IMG/VR virus record: IMGVR_UViG_3300050015_000759
Location: 1-27,298 of that record
Direction: 5' to 3' (one strand)
DNA length: 27,298 nt
DNA from: a virus
The stretch's first letter is position 1. Each line of letters opens with the position of its first letter. The translations under genes and the position numbers were made by a program. The notes beneath the pieces are model-generated. The model searched no databases. It was given only the letters and a program-made list of their open reading frames with translations, and was not told the DNA's origin. Of this stretch, positions 1 to 21,659 are shown piece after piece.

Positions 1-600
1 AGACGATCCAGTAGTACCTTGAGAACCAGTGCTTCCCTGCGTAGTGGGACCTATTGAACCCTGACTTCCAGTGGCTCCCTGAGTTGTCGTGCCGATGGCA
101 CCTTGTATACCTTGTATGCCTTGAACCGATGATCCAGTAGATCCCTGAGTTCCAGACGACCCTTGCACCGAAGCCCCAGTAGAACCTTGAATGGACGCAC
201 CCGTAGTCCCCTGACTACCAGTAGATCCCTGTAAGCCAGTGCCTGTGGCACCCTGATTCCCCAGTAATCCCTGAACCCCTTGTGATCCAGCACCACCTTG
301 GGCACCAGTGGCACCTTGAATATTGCTCTGTAATCCCTGAATTCCTTGAACACTGATACCCTGGATACCCTGAATGCCTTGAATACCCTGTATGGAAGAA
401 CCTGTTGCGCCTTGATTTCCCAACAACCCCTGAATACCTTGAATACCAATTCCAGTAGTTCCCTGTATGCCCTGAATGGCCTGTCCCTGTATACCCTGAA
501 GACCCTGAAGACCCTGTACGGTTGCCCCTGTGGTTCCTTGTATACCCTGAACACCCTGGACATATGGTCCCTGTATGCCTTGTGAACCAGGGGAACCCTG
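1..600 (-). repeat. Degenerate Gly-X-Y coding repeat
   Basis: A tandem array of 9-bp units encodes the GXQ/GXT-type collagen-like tract, continuing beyond the window. The unit is imperfect, so this is a coding repeat under amino-acid selection and not a simple satellite. Confidence 0.75.
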
Positions 601-996
601 TATACCGGTGGTTCCCTGTGTTCCTATACCTACGATCTTTAAGTTACCCCTACTATCATATGTACCTTCTATAGTCCATGTATCCTTAACATCTAATGTT
701 GTAACCACCAACGTATTTTGGGTTCCATTATCATCATATATGACAGTGAGAATAATAGGATTAACGTCGGTATTACATATTGAAATAGATTTAATAACTC
801 TCCTGTTATTAATACTGGGAGCAGAAACTATAACAACATCTGATGTACTATTAAGAGATCCGCTTTCAGATCCCTCTACAAATGATATGCCATTGTTATC
901 TGCCCATGAAGTTATGAATTCTGGCTGATATGTTGGAGCACCATCGAGTTTTGCCTTAATGGTCCTATGTATAGTATCTAAAATTAAAGTTCTCAT
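1..996 (-). CDS. Collagen-like repeat fibre protein (partial, C-terminus outside window)
   Basis: The frame opens at an ATG (996-994) and stays open to the window edge, giving 332 codons. The first ~125 residues are non-repetitive and hydrophilic, beginning MRTLILDTIHRTIKAKLDG. From about residue 130 it becomes a Gly-X-Y collagen-like tract with units such as GIQGIQG, GTTGSQG and GATGSS. Collagen-like tracts in phage proteins usually form trimeric rods in tail fibres or appendages, so I infer a virion fibre. It is the last visible gene of the minus-strand structural operon, 9 bp after the 147-aa gene. Its codons are strikingly uniform (many CAGGGT/CAGGGA units), so the DNA is itself a degenerate repeat prone to slippage. 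The other long open frames here are shadows of this repeat. Confidence 0.8.
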   Translation of the reverse strand, partial: MRTLILDTIHRTIKAKLDGAPTYQPEFITSWADNNGISFVEGSESGSLNSTSDVVIVSAPSINNRRVIKSISICNTDVNPIILTVIYDDNGTQNTLVVTTLDVKDTWTIEGTYDSRGNLKIVGIGTQGTTGIQGSPGSQGIQGPYVQGVQGIQGTTGATVQGLQGLQGIQGQAIQGIQGTTGIGIQGIQGLLGNQGATGSSIQGIQGIQGIQGISVQGIQGLQSNIQGATGAQGGAGSQGVQGLLGNQGATGTGLQGSTGSQGTTGASIQGSTGASVQGSSGTQGSTGSSVQGIQGIQGAIGTTTQGATGSQGSIGPTTQGSTGSQGTTGSS

Positions 997-4170: not shown

Positions 4171-4473
4171 TTAAAGGAAATTTACGTCCTCCTGATGGTA
4201 GTTATTATAGTCATCTTCCACCCATATATCTGGGACTTTTTGATATGTTATCTTATTAAAAGTGGCAATGAGCTTACGCACCTTATGATGAGATAAGGGA
4301 TAATAGTCATCTTCTGGACGTTGATCATATAGCGTCTCATTGAGCATAGCGATATATCCATCTCTCCAATGGTCAGTATAGGAATATTTTCCCATCTGCA
4401 TCCTTCTTATCTGACGGTCTACATAATCAGATATTGCCCCATCTAACGAACTAAGTATATCAGAATATATCAT
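4171..4473 (-). CDS. Hypothetical 100-aa protein
   Basis: Its ATG lies inside the last codons of the upstream 185-aa gene (14-bp overlap), which suggests translational coupling. The protein is charged and mixed alpha (ILSSLDGAISDYVDRQIRR, KVRKLIATFNKITYQ) with an acidic, aromatic tail (VEDDYNNYHQEDVNFL). No family is recognised. Being between the portal block and the fibre gene, a connector or head-completion role is possible but unproven. Confidence 0.65.
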   Translation of the reverse strand: MIYSDILSSLDGAISDYVDRQIRRMQMGKYSYTDHWRDGYIAMLNETLYDQRPEDDYYPLSHHKVRKLIATFNKITYQKVPDIWVEDDYNNYHQEDVNFL

Positions 4474-5017
4474 GGTGATGTCTGTGATGATGATGTCTTA
4501 ATCTAGCGAAAACATTAAACTTATTATATATGCCAGTGGTATTTGCCACAAAGATATCTGCCATAAGACCTTGATAGAGAAGATTAATCATACAAGCATA
4601 TCTTATCTCCATAGAATTCATATCATCAACATCATTGACAGTATCGAAACATACCTCTGTCTTATATTTCCAGGACTTATAGTATATTACCTCATCGGTG
4701 GAATATGTGAGTGTTTGCATACCCGTGGTGCTTATATTGAACGTCAGTATATCGTCTGGAAACTCTTTGTCTTCACCATATAAATCTGCAGAGAATATAT
4801 CAATGAAAAAATCCCCGACAAGATCATCGCCAGATATCACCTGTTCCCATATATTAATACCACCAGCAAACTCAGGATCTTCGTCTAAAGTGCTAATAGT
4901 GAGCAATGCATCGGTACCTAAGGGATCATATTCACCCCAGTTTAGAGATGTATTGTAAATCCTTATAGCATGACCCGATAATATAGGGGTTGTTGAAAAA
5001 CTAAATGTTATTGCCAT
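4460..5017 (-). CDS. Virion-type protein with natural histidine-rich tail
   Basis: A 185-aa protein whose ATG lies 1 bp after the portal stop. It is beta-rich and acidic (LLTISTLDEDPEF, ISTTGMQTLTYSTDEV) and ends in RHHHHRHHHDIF, seven histidines in the last 11 residues. The His codons lie just before the overlap with the next gene. No family is recognised. The position directly after the portal suggests a head-tail connector or neck protein. The His-rich tail might bind a metal, or might reflect selection on the overlapping start of the next gene. Confidence 0.7.
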   Translation of the reverse strand: MAITFSFSTTPILSGHAIRIYNTSLNWGEYDPLGTDALLTISTLDEDPEFAGGINIWEQVISGDDLVGDFFIDIFSADLYGEDKEFPDDILTFNISTTGMQTLTYSTDEVIYYKSWKYKTEVCFDTVNDVDDMNSMEIRYACMINLLYQGLMADIFVANTTGIYNKFNVFARLRHHHHRHHHDIF

Positions 5018-7431: not shown

Positions 7432-8112
7432 TCAATTAAAACTAAGTTCTCTTATCAGTTTGAACTCTACCGATAGTTTGTCAGATTTAGACCAATTGCA
7501 TTCTGGACATGATATCACTATATTACCGACAGAGTGCCTTCCGCCCTTACACAGTGGTATCACGTGATCCATATGATAATTTTCCAATTTTTTATTACAC
7601 CAAAAACATTCACCATTCTGTCTATTTAATTGTCTATTTATGTCTCCATCTGTCACCTTAAATACACCATTATTTGTTTTACGAAATCTTCTTTTTACGC
7701 AATATAAAATAAATTTTTGTCTATTTCTAAGTCTCCATGCATTAGCACGTCTTCTTATTTCATCCTTATGACTATCGTAATATTTTTTTATAGTAATCTG
7801 TCGAGATAGTTTTTTCTCATAATTAGTTAGAACTACCCTAACCTTAGGTTCTGACTTATGTCTCTGCATAAAAGACCTCTGTATTTCATTTCTCCTTTCC
7901 CTGTTATTATGCTGCCACTCAATAGATCTTCTATTGCAATCCTCCGTATGAGTTAAATAGTATTTTTTGCTGGATAACCTAGAACGCTCCTTAAGTTTAT
8001 CTGCATTACCCTCTGAGTATTTTCTATAATATTCATTAAGCCTTTCTTTATTTCTTTCCCTATATTCTTTCTGATACAAACGTATTTTTTCTTTACTTTC
8101 TTCCGTCATCAT
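7432..8112 (-). CDS. Free-standing HNH homing endonuclease
   Basis: A 226-aa protein. Residues 1-140 are very basic and helical with repeated KYYxxHxxExRRR-like units (KEYRERNKERLNEYY, KKYYDSHKDEIRRRANAW), as in DNA-binding regions of phage HNH proteins. The C-terminal HNH core has the zinc pairs C169-x2-C172 and C202-x2-C205, the H180-M-D182-H183 box, and N197 in GNIVISCPEC. This looks intact and catalytically complete. It lies between terL and the portal, a common landing site for homing endonucleases, and has its own promoter immediately upstream. It is probably mobile and not part of packaging. It could also be a packaging-associated HNH nuclease, but the basic repeat N-terminus favours a homing type. 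Confidence 0.88.
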   Translation of the reverse strand: MMTEESKEKIRLYQKEYRERNKERLNEYYRKYSEGNADKLKERSRLSSKKYYLTHTEDCNRRSIEWQHNNRERRNEIQRSFMQRHKSEPKVRVVLTNYEKKLSRQITIKKYYDSHKDEIRRRANAWRLRNRQKFILYCVKRRFRKTNNGVFKVTDGDINRQLNRQNGECFWCNKKLENYHMDHVIPLCKGGRHSVGNIVISCPECNWSKSDKLSVEFKLIRELSFN

Positions 8113-8118
8113 ATTTCA

Positions 8119-8149
8119 CAAAATTAACAAATTTATTCGGTAATACAAA
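8119..8149 (-). promoter_or_regulatory. Bacteroidetes-type promoter for the HNH gene
   Basis: On the minus strand TTTG (8149-8146), a 19-nt spacer and TAATTTTG (8126-8119) fit the Bacteroidetes -33/-7 consensus TTTG...TAnnTTTG. The -7 box ends only 6 bp before the HNH start codon, so the transcript would be leaderless or nearly so. Confidence 0.55.
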
Positions 8150-8154
8150 ATATT

Positions 8155-11100
8155 TTAATTTACACCCCTGTTATAGCTGTAATCATCCTTCTCCATTCGT
8201 AATGTTCCCTTGGCGTTGCGGAGGAAATAGTCGTCGAAAGCAAATGATTTAGACCGATTATTTTCATTACTCATAGAGTTCTCCAAAAACTTCTGACGGT
8301 CCTCCCTGAGTAGCATAAGCATACCGCAGGCAGATACCCTATCATAGTTACCGTTAATATTCCACTTCATGCATTCTAACAGTAATCCTATAGATCTTAT
8401 CTTGTGTAGATTAAGAACTTCTTTATTATCTTCCTGATTACCATGAGCCTTAGATAGAAGATAATCGGCTAAAAGTCTTCTAGCTCTGGCATTAATGAAC
8501 TTACCTGAGTTCGTGCCTTTATTTTTGTTCCCCCACATATTACCTTTTATCATTTCCACGTCTTTCAGCGACTGTAGGGTATCGCTTAGGAGATATAAGG
8601 AATTCTTTCTGTCGAAATACTGGAATAGGCCCTTTTTATCGTTCTCATAGTTAGCTATTGCATTATAATACAACAAGATACGCCTACACATCTCGTAAAA
8701 GTCATTGGCGAATTTTGGCCTACCAGTGTATTCACAGACCATCCTATCTGTGAATAAATCCATAACAAATATAGAACCTAGGGAAACCGTATTGCTACTA
8801 TCATCATCATATGGGTCTATACCTGCGATATATCTGTTTCTCTGAGCTTCTCCATTCAATATAAATGGCCTCTCGAATATCTCTATTGCTCCTTCGTACT
8901 TATTGTCCTGCAAAGGAAACTCCCGTATAGGCTTAACATATCCATTTACCCTCCATTCAACTACTCCACTGGGATTAAATGCCAGATCTCCAATATAATG
9001 TGGCCCAACAAATTCCTCTAGACGTGGCATTATCTTCTCAAGATATTCGCGAATGTCTGCAACAGCAAAGAGTGTCCCATCTACCCTCATCATTGAATCC
9101 TGGGGAGTAATTGGATATTCAGCCTTTCTCTGAGTTAAAGCCCTTGGGTCAGAAGAACTCTTGCGAATTCTATCCACTTCTATGAATAGATCCTTAAGAG
9201 CTTTTGTTACATTGGGCATACCATTTTCATCGTAACAGTTAGCCCTATTAAGATAAGCTCCCCAAAAGAATCCACACTGACCTGCTCCATTGGTATTTCT
9301 ATCGTATACATTAGGTAATGCGAACACATTATAAGATGCTGGATAATAGAACATATCCTCAGCACCCTCAAAATCAGATCCTTCACTACCACCGGTATTA
9401 TGTGTAATAATGTTATTACAAAGGTATGTATGCGTAGCATCTGTAGTTAAATTATGAATATAGTTGACTCCTATATCTTCAACTGAGGATATATATTCCT
9501 CTCTTATATTATCAAACTCATTTAATTTCCTATGTTTTTTAGAAAATGAAGTTATAATATTCGATAATGCATCATTCTTATATCTTATCATTATAGGAAT
9601 GTTTTTATAGAAATTCTCAATACTTCTCATTGACCTAATATTCAATTCATACCATGGGTTTTTATCCTTTCTTTCCTCACAAATTCTAGGTAAATAAGTT
9701 CTTATAACTCCAACAACTCCAAATTTTTCCAATAAAAACTTTATCTGCTCCAACATTTCCCTACTACTCTGAGATATTGAAATAGATGACGCATTCTTTT
9801 GGGTATACTGAACGCATCCGTCTGTATCGAATAAGCCAGCGAGCAATAGAGCACTATCTAATTTGTTCAGACTGGTAAAATTTGTAGGCAATCTTTTTCT
9901 GTCTTTTGATTGACCGGCAATACCTATATCTTTTAAATTTTGAATCATATCTCTAATACTAATTTCCCTGTACGTCCTTCCATCTTTTGTTGGTCTTTCA
10001 AGTTCCACATTACATGAATAGTTAGATAATATATAATTATTTAACTCATCATCACAATTAGAAAAACAAGGAGTCTTATATTCCATTTTGTTGTAATGTC
10101 TTCTCATTCCATAGGAACCATCCCCAATAAGCATTCCTACAAATCTTGCATCAAAAAGCTTATCATTTCCCCAAATGTCAATTTCATCTGCACACAAGAT
10201 GACATCTCCCTTTTTTAAATCTGCAGCATTAACCCACTCCTTTGTGTAATAAAAACATCTATTTTCGTTGTGACTATTTCTTTCATGTTTTTTTCTACAT
10301 AAAATTGGATGGTCATTACTGCAATTAAGTTCTCGATATAAAGTCTTTATTTTTACACAATCTTTCCGAGAAGGTTCTTTAATGTATGATATATTTTCAA
10401 CTGACAACTTTTCTCCAAAACCAATTATACCGTCTGATGCTACTATATCCTCAATATTAATAACCCTTCCATCTGAAGTCCAAACCTTTGTTCCGGCACA
10501 TACGCAACCACCAGCGATAAGCTGAGCAAAGACATTATCACCATCTTCAACAGATGCCCTACTCAGGGCCCAGGCTTTTTTGATATGAGGATAGGCACCA
10601 TATTCCTCGAATATTATGTCTCCTCTCTTACCCCTTATCTTGTCTGGATCATCCTTGGTGGATATACCCATAATATCAGACTTCATACCTTTCTCTGACC
10701 CAGTCCTAGTATCTTTATAACCTATCCTCTTCTCTAAGGCTGTATCTTTTACCCTTAGACGTGGAAAAGGAGTGTGTTCTGCAAGAAAATCTAGATAGTC
10801 CCAGGCTTTTGTGATAACACCATCTTTTGTTAGATATTGCATATCATGAGCCACATAAAAAGTCTTACTCTTCTCTACAAAGAGTGCGTTCCTGGGACCG
10901 ATAGCACCCATCTTAAAGGAGTTACCAATACCACGAACCTTTAGTAGTTCTGCATGTTGCCCCAAATCTTTTGCCTGATCTATATAATGATAGAATAGGT
11001 AATCACCAAGCCAGATATCCCCGAAGTCGTGTATCCTGATAGATCTCTTACCCTTACCTACACGCTTTGTTTTCATTATGGGACAGTAATTCCAGTACCA

Positions 11101-11499
11101 GTATAGGTTACCTGTTATCCACTCACCATCTTCCCTTACCAGTCCTTCCCTTATCCGTCGCTTCTCCTCTCTCCAAAAGACGCTATAAGCAGATTTTGGG
11201 TGTTTGTTTATTGGATATAAGGTATAGGCACCATTCTCCCTAAAAAATTCTGCTGCCTTTGTGAAATAACTCATATTCTCCAGACGATGAGGATTGGTAA
11301 CGTCTACTACTATCCTGCCTAATTCATCTTTCGGCAGATCTGCAATAGTTGGCATATCTTTAGATACCAACCTACTGATGAATACTATCTCGTCAATGGC
11401 GGAGTTAATCTCCTCCGCCACATCTGAGTTTATATCTGAATAAAATTCAACATCTAAAGGAGTATTATACTCATTTACTGTTCTAAATTGCTCTATCAT
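8155..11499 (-). CDS. terL: Terminase large subunit, interrupted by an intein
   Basis: A 1114-aa precursor; without the intein the terminase is 744 aa. The ATPase half has a deviant Walker A (LLKVRGIGNSFKMGAIGPRN, ~186-203) and a Walker B (GDIIFEEYGA, ~293-302). The following coupling motif reads AGG/TGGSEG once residues 332-701 are removed. The RNase H-like nuclease half has its first acidic residue in AGIDPYDDD (D895) and a late one in NYDRVSACGMLML (D1053). TerL pumps DNA into the prohead and cuts the concatemer. The ATG overlaps the stop of the upstream 191-aa gene by 4 bp. Packaging activity should depend on accurate protein splicing, because the insertion falls in a conserved motif. Confidence 0.92.
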   Translation of the reverse strand: MIEQFRTVNEYNTPLDVEFYSDINSDVAEEINSAIDEIVFISRLVSKDMPTIADLPKDELGRIVVDVTNPHRLENMSYFTKAAEFFRENGAYTLYPINKHPKSAYSVFWREEKRRIREGLVREDGEWITGNLYWYWNYCPIMKTKRVGKGKRSIRIHDFGDIWLGDYLFYHYIDQAKDLGQHAELLKVRGIGNSFKMGAIGPRNALFVEKSKTFYVAHDMQYLTKDGVITKAWDYLDFLAEHTPFPRLRVKDTALEKRIGYKDTRTGSEKGMKSDIMGISTKDDPDKIRGKRGDIIFEEYGAYPHIKKAWALSRASVEDGDNVFAQLIAGGCVCAGTKVWTSDGRVINIEDIVASDGIIGFGEKLSVENISYIKEPSRKDCVKIKTLYRELNCSNDHPILCRKKHERNSHNENRCFYYTKEWVNAADLKKGDVILCADEIDIWGNDKLFDARFVGMLIGDGSYGMRRHYNKMEYKTPCFSNCDDELNNYILSNYSCNVELERPTKDGRTYREISIRDMIQNLKDIGIAGQSKDRKRLPTNFTSLNKLDSALLLAGLFDTDGCVQYTQKNASSISISQSSREMLEQIKFLLEKFGVVGVIRTYLPRICEERKDKNPWYELNIRSMRSIENFYKNIPIMIRYKNDALSNIITSFSKKHRKLNEFDNIREEYISSVEDIGVNYIHNLTTDATHTYLCNNIITHNTGGSEGSDFEGAEDMFYYPASYNVFALPNVYDRNTNGAGQCGFFWGAYLNRANCYDENGMPNVTKALKDLFIEVDRIRKSSSDPRALTQRKAEYPITPQDSMMRVDGTLFAVADIREYLEKIMPRLEEFVGPHYIGDLAFNPSGVVEWRVNGYVKPIREFPLQDNKYEGAIEIFERPFILNGEAQRNRYIAGIDPYDDDSSNTVSLGSIFVMDLFTDRMVCEYTGRPKFANDFYEMCRRILLYYNAIANYENDKKGLFQYFDRKNSLYLLSDTLQSLKDVEMIKGNMWGNKNKGTNSGKFINARARRLLADYLLSKAHGNQEDNKEVLNLHKIRSIGLLLECMKWNINGNYDRVSACGMLMLLREDRQKFLENSMSNENNRSKSFAFDDYFLRNAKGTLRMEKDDYSYNRGVN
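9397..10506 (-). mobile_element. LAGLIDADG-type intein in TerL (370 aa, in frame)
   Basis: Residues 332-701 of the TerL precursor. The N-terminal splice block starts CVCAGTKVWTSDGRV with Cys1 as nucleophile. A second splice block has CSNDHPILCR (the N-x2-H-type block B). The endonuclease has two LAGLIDADG-like motifs, FVGMLIGDGSYG (~453) and LLAGLFDTDGCVQ (~552). The C-terminal block ends HTYLCNNIITHN with the penultimate His and terminal Asn, followed by Thr as +1 residue. All splice residues are present, so it looks active. The extein joint would read QLIAGG-TGGSEG. Codon use looks more AT-rich than the flanking terL, consistent with recent insertion. Confidence 0.93.
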
Positions 11500-16964: not shown

Positions 16965-16977
16965 GAAAAATAATTTG

Positions 16978-17050
16978 AGCCGAAGGTAGGAGTCGAACCT
17001 ACAACCTGATGATTACAAAGCACCGGCTCTGCCAATTGAGCTACTTCGGC
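16978..17050 (-). tRNA. tRNA-Thr(UGU)
   Basis: A 73-nt cloverleaf. The acceptor GCCGAAG pairs with CTTCGGC, followed by discriminator T. The D arm is GCTC/GAGC with an AATTGGCA loop. The anticodon loop TTTGTAA gives anticodon UGU. The T arm is GTAGG-TTCGACT-CCTAC. The anticodon stem has one C-U mismatch next to the loop and one G-U. No CCA is encoded. It probably supplements host decoding of ACA codons. Confidence 0.92.
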
Positions 17051-19595: not shown

Positions 19596-20261
19596 ATGAA
19601 AAAACTATCGTCTCTTGTTTACGATTTTTCTCATGGTGATCTTGCAATAAAACCACTAATAGAATGGGAATTTTATATTGCAGCTTGTAATGCATTAAAA
19701 TATAGAGAGAATTTTAATATATCATTAGTAACAGGTCCTGCAGTATTAAGGCATCTTGGATTTGCTCGTAGAATACCATATCAAATAATTAATATCTATG
19801 AAGTAGATCGTGAAATATATAATGGAATACTTTTGAAGACAAATAAGCTAAAAAATGTAAAGGTACATCTCGAATCTATTCATAAAAGTAATGATCCATT
19901 TATTGATTGTGACTTAACATGCGTCAGTGATATTACTGCCATAAAAATGTGTATTGAAAATCAATCTAAAATAAGTGGTGGTAAAGCTTTTATATGGAGT
20001 GTTTCTTTGAGGAATAAAGAAGGCTTAGATGCGTCAAAGATAATTGCAACCATTTTTCGATCTATAGGTGTAAAGGCCATTTTATCGGAACATGAAATGC
20101 CTCTTAAGCATTATAGAAAAGCAACACCTAAAGGTGGATATAAAAATTATTATTTAAGGCAGTTATATATTCAGATATCTGGACGAGTAATTAATTATAT
20201 CTGTTACAAATATGATGCTGGTGGTGGTTGTATGTTAACATGTTTTATGAGTTATATATGA
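19596..20261 (+). CDS. 221-aa protein of the radical SAM cassette, possible Rossmann/methyltransferase-like
   Basis: Begins MKKLSSLVYDFSHGDLAIKP. The middle resembles a class I methyltransferase-like Rossmann fold: a Gly-containing strand-loop (ISLVTGPAVLRHLG, 42-55), a strand ending in acid (IINIYEVDREIYNGIL, 64-79), and later strands DLTCVSDITAI and GKAFIWSVSL. The SAM-binding GxGxG is not clear, so this is tentative. The C-terminus contains GGGCMLTCF. Its stop overlaps the radical SAM start by 4 bp (ATGA), so the two are coupled. The cassette is visibly more AT-rich than the 17513 gene, suggesting recent acquisition. Unknown function. Confidence 0.75.
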   Translation: MKKLSSLVYDFSHGDLAIKPLIEWEFYIAACNALKYRENFNISLVTGPAVLRHLGFARRIPYQIINIYEVDREIYNGILLKTNKLKNVKVHLESIHKSNDPFIDCDLTCVSDITAIKMCIENQSKISGGKAFIWSVSLRNKEGLDASKIIATIFRSIGVKAILSEHEMPLKHYRKATPKGGYKNYYLRQLYIQISGRVINYICYKYDAGGGCMLTCFMSYI

Positions 20262-21100
20262 GCAAGCTATTGATCAATTCATGTGATGGTGCATATTCTA
20301 GTCTTGATGTTAGATTTACCAAATACTGTGATAATGCATGCCCATTTTGTGTTGAAAAGACAGGCATTGAGGCGATGAAGATGAATGTGCAAGAGATGGT
20401 TAAGTCGACAATTACGTCTGGTATTAAAAACGTGTTGATACTTGGGGGAGAGCCATTTCTATATCCATCGAGCTTAATTTACTATATCAAAGGAATACGC
20501 GAACATGTAGATAAAATATATATCACAACCTCTCTACCCGCAACTTTTGCAGTAAATCCCGAGCTCTGTAATGAGATCTTAGACCTAATTGATGGCCTCA
20601 ACGTATCAATTCAACACTATATTCCAGAAGTAAATAATATGGCGCTTAGAGCGTCTAAAACTCATAATAGAATAGATATTCTTAAAGAGTTAAATAAAGA
20701 GTATGCTGATAAAATCCGAACGTCTATAAATCTTGTTGCTGGCATAATATGGGATAAAGATTCTCTAACAAAATGCCTGAAAGCCCTAGATAATATAGGT
20801 TGTAAAAATATTAAGATTAATGAGCTTCAAAATAGTGGTATGTATTCATCTTATGAGAAATGTATGGGAATTAAACTTCCATCACCATTTGCCCATGGAT
20901 GCCAAACATCAATTAAAATTGAAGGAATTAAAGCCAATCTAATATTAAAGAGAAGTTGTTTTATGACGGAATCAAGTGGTAGGGCTTCAATACTAGACAT
21001 GGCAAAAGCTTTTTTGCGAATATTTATTAAATCAAATCATAAATTTAAAGTATTGTATGAAAACGGGAAAATTGAAAATGGATGGCTTAAGAAGGCCTGA
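20258..21100 (+). CDS. Radical SAM enzyme
   Basis: A 280-aa protein from the ATG at 20258 (the ATGA overlap is preferred over the upstream ATG at 20228). The [4Fe-4S] motif is C24-DNA-C28-PF-C31, the canonical CxxxCxxC, after the MoaA-like strand SSLDVRFTKY. The SAM amino-group contact GGEP is at 63-66 in VLILGGEPFL. The rest has TIM-barrel-like strands (INLVAGIIWD, KNIKINELQNSG). The C-terminal ~70 residues are basic, contain two more cysteines (HGCQTS, KRSCFM) and end in VLYENGKIENGWLKK, which may be a substrate or auxiliary-cluster region. It generates a 5'-deoxyadenosyl radical; the substrate is unknown. Candidates are a peptide (RiPP maturase), tRNA or a nucleotide. Confidence 0.9.
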   Translation: MSKLLINSCDGAYSSLDVRFTKYCDNACPFCVEKTGIEAMKMNVQEMVKSTITSGIKNVLILGGEPFLYPSSLIYYIKGIREHVDKIYITTSLPATFAVNPELCNEILDLIDGLNVSIQHYIPEVNNMALRASKTHNRIDILKELNKEYADKIRTSINLVAGIIWDKDSLTKCLKALDNIGCKNIKINELQNSGMYSSYEKCMGIKLPSPFAHGCQTSIKIEGIKANLILKRSCFMTESSGRASILDMAKAFLRIFIKSNHKFKVLYENGKIENGWLKKA

Positions 21101-21233
21101 TCTAATTACATCATTAACAAAAAAAGTTATTGATCTTGAAAAAGAGATTAGATCTCTTAGATCAAAAAATAGCAACTCAAATATTGAGTTTTCTGGTTGT
21201 CATAGAAGTGGAAGAAATGTAGGACATTGTTGA
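21078..21233 (+). CDS. 51-aa Cys-containing peptide, candidate radical SAM substrate
   Basis: The ATG lies 23 bp inside the end of the radical SAM gene in another frame. Residues ~8-30 form an amphipathic leader-like helix (LITSLTKKVIDLEKEIRSLR). A polar Ser/Asn linker follows, then a short C-terminal core, FSGCHRSGRNVGHC, with two cysteines, one of them the last residue. Leader helix plus Cys/Gly/Ser core is the layout of ribosomally made, post-translationally modified peptides, whose precursors usually adjoin the maturase gene. It could instead be a small coiled-coil partner. Existence is supported by coupling and a sensible amphipathic pattern. Confidence 0.6.
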   Translation: MDGLRRPDLITSLTKKVIDLEKEIRSLRSKNSNSNIEFSGCHRSGRNVGHC

Positions 21234-21567: not shown

Positions 21568-21580
21568 ATTTAATTTTTAT

Positions 21581-21659
21581 GCGACATAGCTCAATGGTAG
21601 AGTCTCATAGGGATAATTACCCTTTGACGGATAAGGGTTCGACTCCCTTTGTCGCGCCA
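21581..21659 (+). tRNA. tRNA-like gene with extended anticodon stem
   Basis: Acceptor GCGACA pairs with TGTCGC (6 bp), followed by G and encoded CCA. U8-A9, a D arm (GCTC-AATGGTA-GAGT), a 5-nt variable loop (CGGAT) and a T arm (AAGGG-TTCGACT-CCCTT) are all standard. The anticodon arm is not: TCATAGGG and CCCTTTGA form 8 bp with one T-T mismatch around loop ATAATTA, three pairs more than normal. If the loop is read normally the anticodon would be AAU, unusual in bacteria. It may be inactive, a non-canonical decoder or a tRNA mimic. Confidence 0.7.

Follow-up and report, generated by a model that had tools for sequence, protein, structure and literature searches.

We analysed a window of 27,298 nucleotides, positions 1 to 27,298 of the virus record IMGVR_UViG_3300050015_000759, which derives from a gut phage. 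The terminase large subunit encoded in this 27-kb window (8155-11499, minus strand) is closest in sequence to that of Dulem virus 41 and other crAss-like phages, which identifies the window as a fragment of a crAss-like phage. Its plus strand carries three overlapping genes, the last of which encodes a small protein with a cysteine-containing C-terminal tail:

19596-20261, plus strand: 221-aa ORF, overlapping the start of the enzyme gene by 4 bp
20258-21100, plus strand: radical SAM ORF, 280 aa from ATG 20258 or 290 aa from TTG 20228
21057-21233, plus strand: small partner ORF, 58 aa from ATG 21057 or 51 aa from ATG 21078
21192-21230, plus strand: C-terminal tail SGCHRSGRNVGHC of the small ORF, read from the sequence
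21198-21200 and 21228-21230, plus strand: TGT codons of the tail cysteines in the small ORF, the second encoding the final residue

The three overlapping frames are present as first described: the 221-aa and enzyme genes share 4 bp (ATGA), and the small ORF overlaps the 3′ end of the enzyme gene by 23 bp from its second ATG (21078), or by 44 bp from ATG 21057. The original prediction also called the cassette AT-rich and recently acquired. Its GC content of 31-34% does not set it apart from the plus-strand half of the window (28-33% from ~22 kb to 27 kb), and recent acquisition is without support because the cassette matches its surroundings. Elsewhere, the window encodes a tRNA-Ile with anticodon AAT, unusual for bacteria (21580-21658, plus strand), a tRNA-Thr (TGT; 16977-17050, minus strand), a 185-aa protein with a natural His-rich C-terminal tail, RLRHHHHRHHHDIF (4460-5017, minus strand), and an apparent virion fibre protein with collagen-like GxQGxQG repeats (1-996, minus strand). 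The terminase gene is seemingly split by an intein-like insert that begins CVCAGTKVWTSDGRV..., has a LAGLIDADG-like middle and ends ...CNNIITHN before TGG.

The enzyme reads as a radical SAM protein with the CxxxCxxC motif (CDNACPFC) and GGEP motif both intact, as originally reported, together with SIQHY, a C-terminal block GIKLPSPFAHGC...KRSCF and a closing C-terminal ENGKIENGW hairpin. It matches Pfam PF04055 at 43.6 bits against a cut-off of 29.5, and its structure model matches radical SAM structures with a Z-score of 13.2 at a pLDDT of 60, at which only the core fold is supported. The motifs, the PF04055 match and the partial TIM barrel of the model together place the enzyme in the radical SAM superfamily. 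Cysteines beyond the core are also conserved, as GIKLPSPFAHGC...KRSCF in the window enzyme and its relatives in Lak megaphages and as CPVCR in relatives with a fused tail, and these C-terminal cysteines may be auxiliary cluster or metal ligands. Extra C-terminal cysteines are common in peptide-modifying radical SAM enzymes. The window enzyme and its relatives fall far below the cut-offs of NCBIfam peptide-maturase models (HxsC, nif11-class, YydG and others), and Pfam and NCBIfam models, which often miss RREs, detected no leader-recognition domain (PqqD/RRE) in the enzyme, the 221-aa protein or the 58-aa protein.

Prokaryotic viperins are among the best weak profile matches of the enzyme (PADLOC pVip, E 2.5e-10) and viperin structures match its model, as would be expected if it shared viperin-like nucleotide chemistry and made a modified nucleotide, the neighbouring tail gene being incidental. 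We consider this improbable. The similarity lies in the generic radical SAM core, which is all that aligns; the viperin models give 29.5 bits (NF038283, cut-off 180) and 20.6 bits (TIGR04278, cut-off 450); structures of PFL-activating enzyme and MoaA match equally well; and the phage enzyme differs from viperin in its C-terminal part and in having a tail partner. Activase models also appear among the weak matches and prompted us to consider a GrcA-like spare part, a glycyl-radical reading that we rejected on the absence of the RVxGY signature.

In a BLAST search of 50,697 phage records with the window enzyme, full-length relatives occurred only in 15 Lak megaphages of Prevotella, at 30-32% identity. 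All 15 records encode, directly downstream of the enzyme, a protein ending SGGCGNTYG...SGGC. This partner is the next ORF, about 20 bp downstream and 153 or 166 aa long, in Lak-A1, C1, B5 and B1; in Lak-A2 the same tail is reached only after a one-base frameshift. The partners terminate in SGGCGNTYGGFSRSGGC, SGGCGNTYSGFSRSGGC (C1) or SGGCGNTYGSPYHHWSGGC, and comparison of Lak-A with Lak-B reveals a conserved N-terminal, helical domain and tail joined by a variable linker. Production of enzyme and partner as one chain by frameshifting or readthrough was considered and rejected: the two genes lie in one reading frame in the Lak loci examined, but TAA stops stand between them and the partner starts from an ATG of its own, and in the window and in phage locus L097, described below, the frames differ by +1, with no clear slip site seen in the window. 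For the window enzyme, scans of viral and genome contigs that used single proteins or were based on A2 returned Lak phages only, or nothing, and a DNA pattern for GxKLPxPFxxGC returned only Lak and chance matches.

The small frame of the window is a real gene. Its 58-aa product ends ...FSGCHRSGRNVGHC and comprises a predicted helix or coiled coil at about 21087-21160, judged by eye, and then the tail (helix-plus-tail stretch ...LITSLTKKVIDLEKEIRSLRSKNSNSNIEFSGCHRSGRNVGHC), which is probably flexible because it is short and Gly/Ser-rich. The end motif GC-x(6-16)-[GS]xC-end was present in 3 of 1,064 real ORFs, namely the 58-aa ORF and two Lak partner proteins, and in none of 13,078 ORFs from random DNA of matched trinucleotide content. 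Outside the overlap, the frame has a codon score of +0.090, compared with a median of 0.158 and a 5th percentile of 0.000 for window genes, and exceeds every one of 19 spurious frames (mean -0.185, maximum 0.020). The rare end motif and coding-like codon use indicate more than a chance ORF, and the sister clade of Lak phages has a tail of the same kind at an equal position. Only a single copy of the crAss-like version was found, so the exact gene has no direct conservation test, but that the frame arose by chance and resembles Lak tails by coincidence is highly improbable.

Using the Lak enzymes as a bridge, and then alignments of newly found members, we widened the family to 99 phage radical SAM loci in 62 enzyme clusters at 70% identity. 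Loci were fetched by enzyme similarity alone, and tails played no part in their selection. Under one fixed tail rule, 18 of the 62 clusters have a tail fused to the enzyme and 10 have a tail on an adjacent ORF. Non-adjacent ORFs of the same loci, used as a control, satisfy the rule in 36 of 2,558 cases (1.4%), well below both the fused set (18/62; Fisher p = 2e-17) and the adjacent ORFs (10/132; p = 5e-5). Several clear cases (L039, L056, L057) escape the rule, and among the clusters scored as having none, many appear to be unrelated radical SAM types pulled in by motif patterns. Recurrence of the tail beside or on the enzyme is too frequent for the incidental gene that viperin-like chemistry would imply. 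Two Listeria/fecal matches were dropped as pyruvate formate-lyase activases, and Dulem virus 40, whose radical SAM protein is tailless and of another type, was set aside.

In phages of 600-735 kb and related contigs, a small ORF beside the enzyme ends in cysteine and lies upstream, nearly contiguous with the enzyme gene, in almost all cases. Partner proteins from these loci end as follows:

LR745206: ...SDGCGGGSYRRSSC, also given as DGCGGGSYRRSSC
LR756502: ...CGMGGGYSTSRC, also given as ...GGGYSTSRC
LR756501, second copy: ...KPSYSGC
L049: ...DSSYSRSSC
L052: ...SGCGGGGRGYSRPSC
L053: ...YSGCGSSSNTGC
L054: ...DGCGRGGYPRSSC
L055: ...DPCSCSSYTVRSSC
L056: ...DPCARGGYTRGGC
L057: ...DPCSHGNFTRTSC

About 2% of ORFs have cysteine as their last residue, and a binomial estimate for this run of Cys-ended neighbours is 1e-13. 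No tail is recognisable near one of the huge-phage enzymes (L030/L060). Downstream of the enzyme, loci L054, L057 and L058 share a conserved 43-64-aa ORF, possibly a second small partner, that ends ...GY(D/E)(Y/F)AVAIAT..E...GAACGQLAII(V/N)E. In the 735-kb phage LR756501.1 (L030, L038-L043), two of at least seven radical SAM proteins fall in the tail-linked family. Rows of different radical SAM genes also occur in phage contigs L059, L061 and L098, most clearly in L061, with a similar tandem in Dulem virus 40, and in L070, L073 and L068 a gene of another radical SAM type precedes an apparent nicotinamide phosphoribosyltransferase gene, either directly or at a short distance.

A second set of relatives carries the tail on the enzyme itself. 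Every Alexandra-type protein that we read, from Erwinia and Dickeya jumbo phages, has the tail fused to the enzyme C terminus, with ends such as ...CSYSRGSSCSFGSGMC and ...CNYPSPCSYSRGSSCSFGSGMC, and fused tails are likewise found in Erwinia phage Y3, in Yersinia phage fHe-Yen9-02, in metagenomic phages such as L062 (...GGCGSRPSSCGGGCGGGCG), L063 (...EYSGGSCHSPSGGGCH), L078, L081 and L100, and in L076 and others. The record of the Cys-tailed Y3 enzyme (KY984068.1, Y3_274) names it GTP 3′,8-cyclase MoaA, which is probably wrong. In L097, a separate gene of 60 aa shares 23 bp with the 3′ end of the enzyme gene, an arrangement close to that of the window. Across the family, tails hold from 1 to 7 or more cysteines with widely varying spacing, some partners (L049, L039) have a single terminal cysteine, and some are helical-domain proteins of 86-169 aa. 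In split systems the tail follows a helical domain, and its last residue is usually cysteine. A small frame with a Cys tail is a conserved companion of the enzyme in distant phages, encoded separately in Lak phages, huge phages and L097, whereas elsewhere the tail is fused. As the original prediction had anticipated for a peptide substrate, the tail cysteines are kept beside enzyme homologues and the remainder of the small protein varies; the window protein resembles other partners only in its helix plus tail, not along its length.

A tree of the core domain groups the window enzyme with the Lak enzymes, with support of 100/98. Trans and cis tail states require 6 changes on this tree, compared with 22.6 for shuffled labels, and the fused enzyme of L076 and the split enzyme of L097 are sisters (support 96/87), demonstrating at least one supported change between the cis and trans layouts. 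The number of switches is uncertain because deep branches are weak. Profile searches across 395 Bacteroidota and 398 Pseudomonadota genomes recovered nothing but other radical SAM proteins, namely a MoaA-like protein in Pseudomonadota and generic matches in Bacteroidota; plasmid matches were likewise generic, and two scans of the GTDB contig set, with narrow patterns only, did not find the tail-linked family. As these sampled genomes and GTDB scans hold no members, the enzyme family is phage-borne as far as sampling goes.

The 221-aa gene follows a different pattern. It had been proposed as a component of the cassette, and a single three-gene operon in which it encodes a methyltransferase or leader-binding partner would fit its 4-bp overlap with the enzyme gene. 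The only relative we found, at 41% identity, lies in a 97.7-kb crAss-like phage contig (L002/G001) whose neighbouring genes resemble those of the window and in which no radical SAM gene was detected. No relative occurs in the four Lak records tested, no other locus pairs the 221-aa protein with the enzyme, and the protein has no family-profile match. A functional three-gene operon is quite improbable on this distribution, and the 221-aa gene is probably independent and outside the enzyme-tail system. The AlphaFold model of the protein is too poor for use (pLDDT 44). With its L002 relative (7974-8648), the window protein (19596-20261) defines a small crAss-like phage family with invariant KSNDPFIDCDLT and GGGxMLTC motifs, perhaps with a methyltransferase-like fold.

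The gene pair, its conserved tail and the switching between cis and trans are directly visible across phages. From these features we infer how the tail might be handled, and we lean towards reading the 58-aa protein as the substrate of the enzyme, the two forming a phage-borne pair in which the enzyme modifies the tail. The short helical N terminus of the 58-aa protein would dock on the radical SAM enzyme and deliver the flexible Gly/Ser-rich tail into the active site, where a 5′-deoxyadenosyl radical would modify either the tail cysteines themselves, in the conserved SG(G)C and at the last residue, or positions beside them, most plausibly forming a thioether or similar Cys/Gly-alpha linkage. 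Because relatives carry the same tail fused to the enzyme C terminus, enzyme and substrate tail could form one chain, acting in cis, or two chains, acting in trans, as in borosins. Inspection of neighbourhood ORF lists revealed no protease, exporter or other maturation gene that stood out near the enzyme, and a search for common neighbour genes across loci found none. Without an evident protease or exporter in the neighbourhood, the modified tail would probably remain attached to its protein within the infected cell. The comparative data that favour such a pair are the recurrence of tails beside or on enzymes far above control ORFs, the downstream tail protein shared by the nearest, Lak relatives, the cis/trans changes on the tree and the conserved extra cysteines of the enzyme.

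Several features weigh against this reading. A fused enzyme that modifies one tail, its own or that of a partner subunit, is wasteful for a catalyst; the variable number and spacing of cysteines leave no fixed acceptor residue apparent; no export or protease genes are recognised and no known maturase model is reached; and the modification is deduced from the genes. The main rival is that the tail is a mobile Cys arm of the enzyme, built in or on a docked subunit, that shuttles electrons, sulfur or a metal/Fe-S group to the active site, with the true substrate elsewhere, for instance a nucleotide, RNA or virion protein. In class I ribonucleotide reductase, a C-terminal Cys pair acts as such a mobile shuttling arm, and the phage tails resemble it as flexible C-terminal arms with cysteines. 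A Cys arm would account for the many clusters with fused tails, in which self-modification would occur once per enzyme, for Gly/Ser-rich flexibility, for the lack of recognised secretion genes, and for multi-Cys tails such as GGCGSRPSSCGGGCGGGCG, which could bind metal. However, ribonucleotide reductase is another enzyme, and known Cys-arm enzymes keep the arm in cis, whereas the tail is in trans in the window clade; the number of cysteines in phage tails is not fixed; and the single terminal cysteine of the L049 and L039 partners means that a dithiol pair is not obligatory. We regard a Cys arm as possible but less likely than tail modification.

The preferred reading of the tail as substrate partly recovers the initial view of the locus as a RiPP precursor beside its maturase. 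Small Cys-tailed ORFs do stand beside homologous enzymes, but a RiPP precursor in the strict sense is no more than a candidate reading, as no maturation gene stands out, some partners are helical-domain proteins as large as 86-169 aa and the tail is often part of the enzyme. For these same reasons, the product may instead be a modified tail kept in the cell, or the tail may be the enzyme's working arm. Pairs of the sactipeptide, ranthipeptide and HxsC type likewise place a radical SAM gene by a small ORF with a Cys-rich C terminus and have extra enzyme cysteines; the phage enzyme differs in scoring below every NCBIfam maturase cut-off, in having no recognised protease or exporter nearby and in often carrying the tail fused.

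The layout has a characterised parallel in borosins, whose methyltransferases act either on a core within the same chain, as autocatalytic fusions, or on one borne by a separate helical-domain precursor, as in split SonM/SonA (PMC8429565). Both systems place a C-terminal core or tail either on the enzyme or on a separate small helical-domain protein, with both layouts in related systems, and the phage family has fused and split tails on one enzyme tree. The phage enzyme is excluded from the borosins proper as a radical SAM protein rather than an alpha-N-methyltransferase, and it differs further in its occurrence in phages and in its Cys/Gly tail, whose role as a substrate is proposed here from the genes. 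AD1_267 appears as a list entry among phage radical SAM genes (PMC6143709), and an Aeromonas giant phage has eight radical SAM genes (PMC12390700). The open-access literature that we searched, to which our coverage was confined, gave no account of Cys tails or partner proteins of phage radical SAM enzymes, and neither for radical SAM enzymes nor for phages does the layout of this enzyme-peptide pair seem to have been described.

A broader proposal, which we advance tentatively as close to evenly balanced, is that a virus-only class of radical SAM enzymes modifies its own or a borrowed Gly/Ser/Cys tail to make a protein-bound cofactor or warhead used in infection. Such a class would span crAss-like phages, Lak megaphages, 600-700-kb phages and enterobacterial jumbo phages. 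Radical SAM genes are widespread in large phages and are mostly annotated as "radical SAM protein" or mis-named, as with the Y3 member called MoaA. Should the Cys tail prove to be their substrate, a large set of phage enzymes would gain a common, testable target, including in cultured phages, and would represent a radical SAM system whose substrate tail moves between the enzyme chain and a separate small protein.
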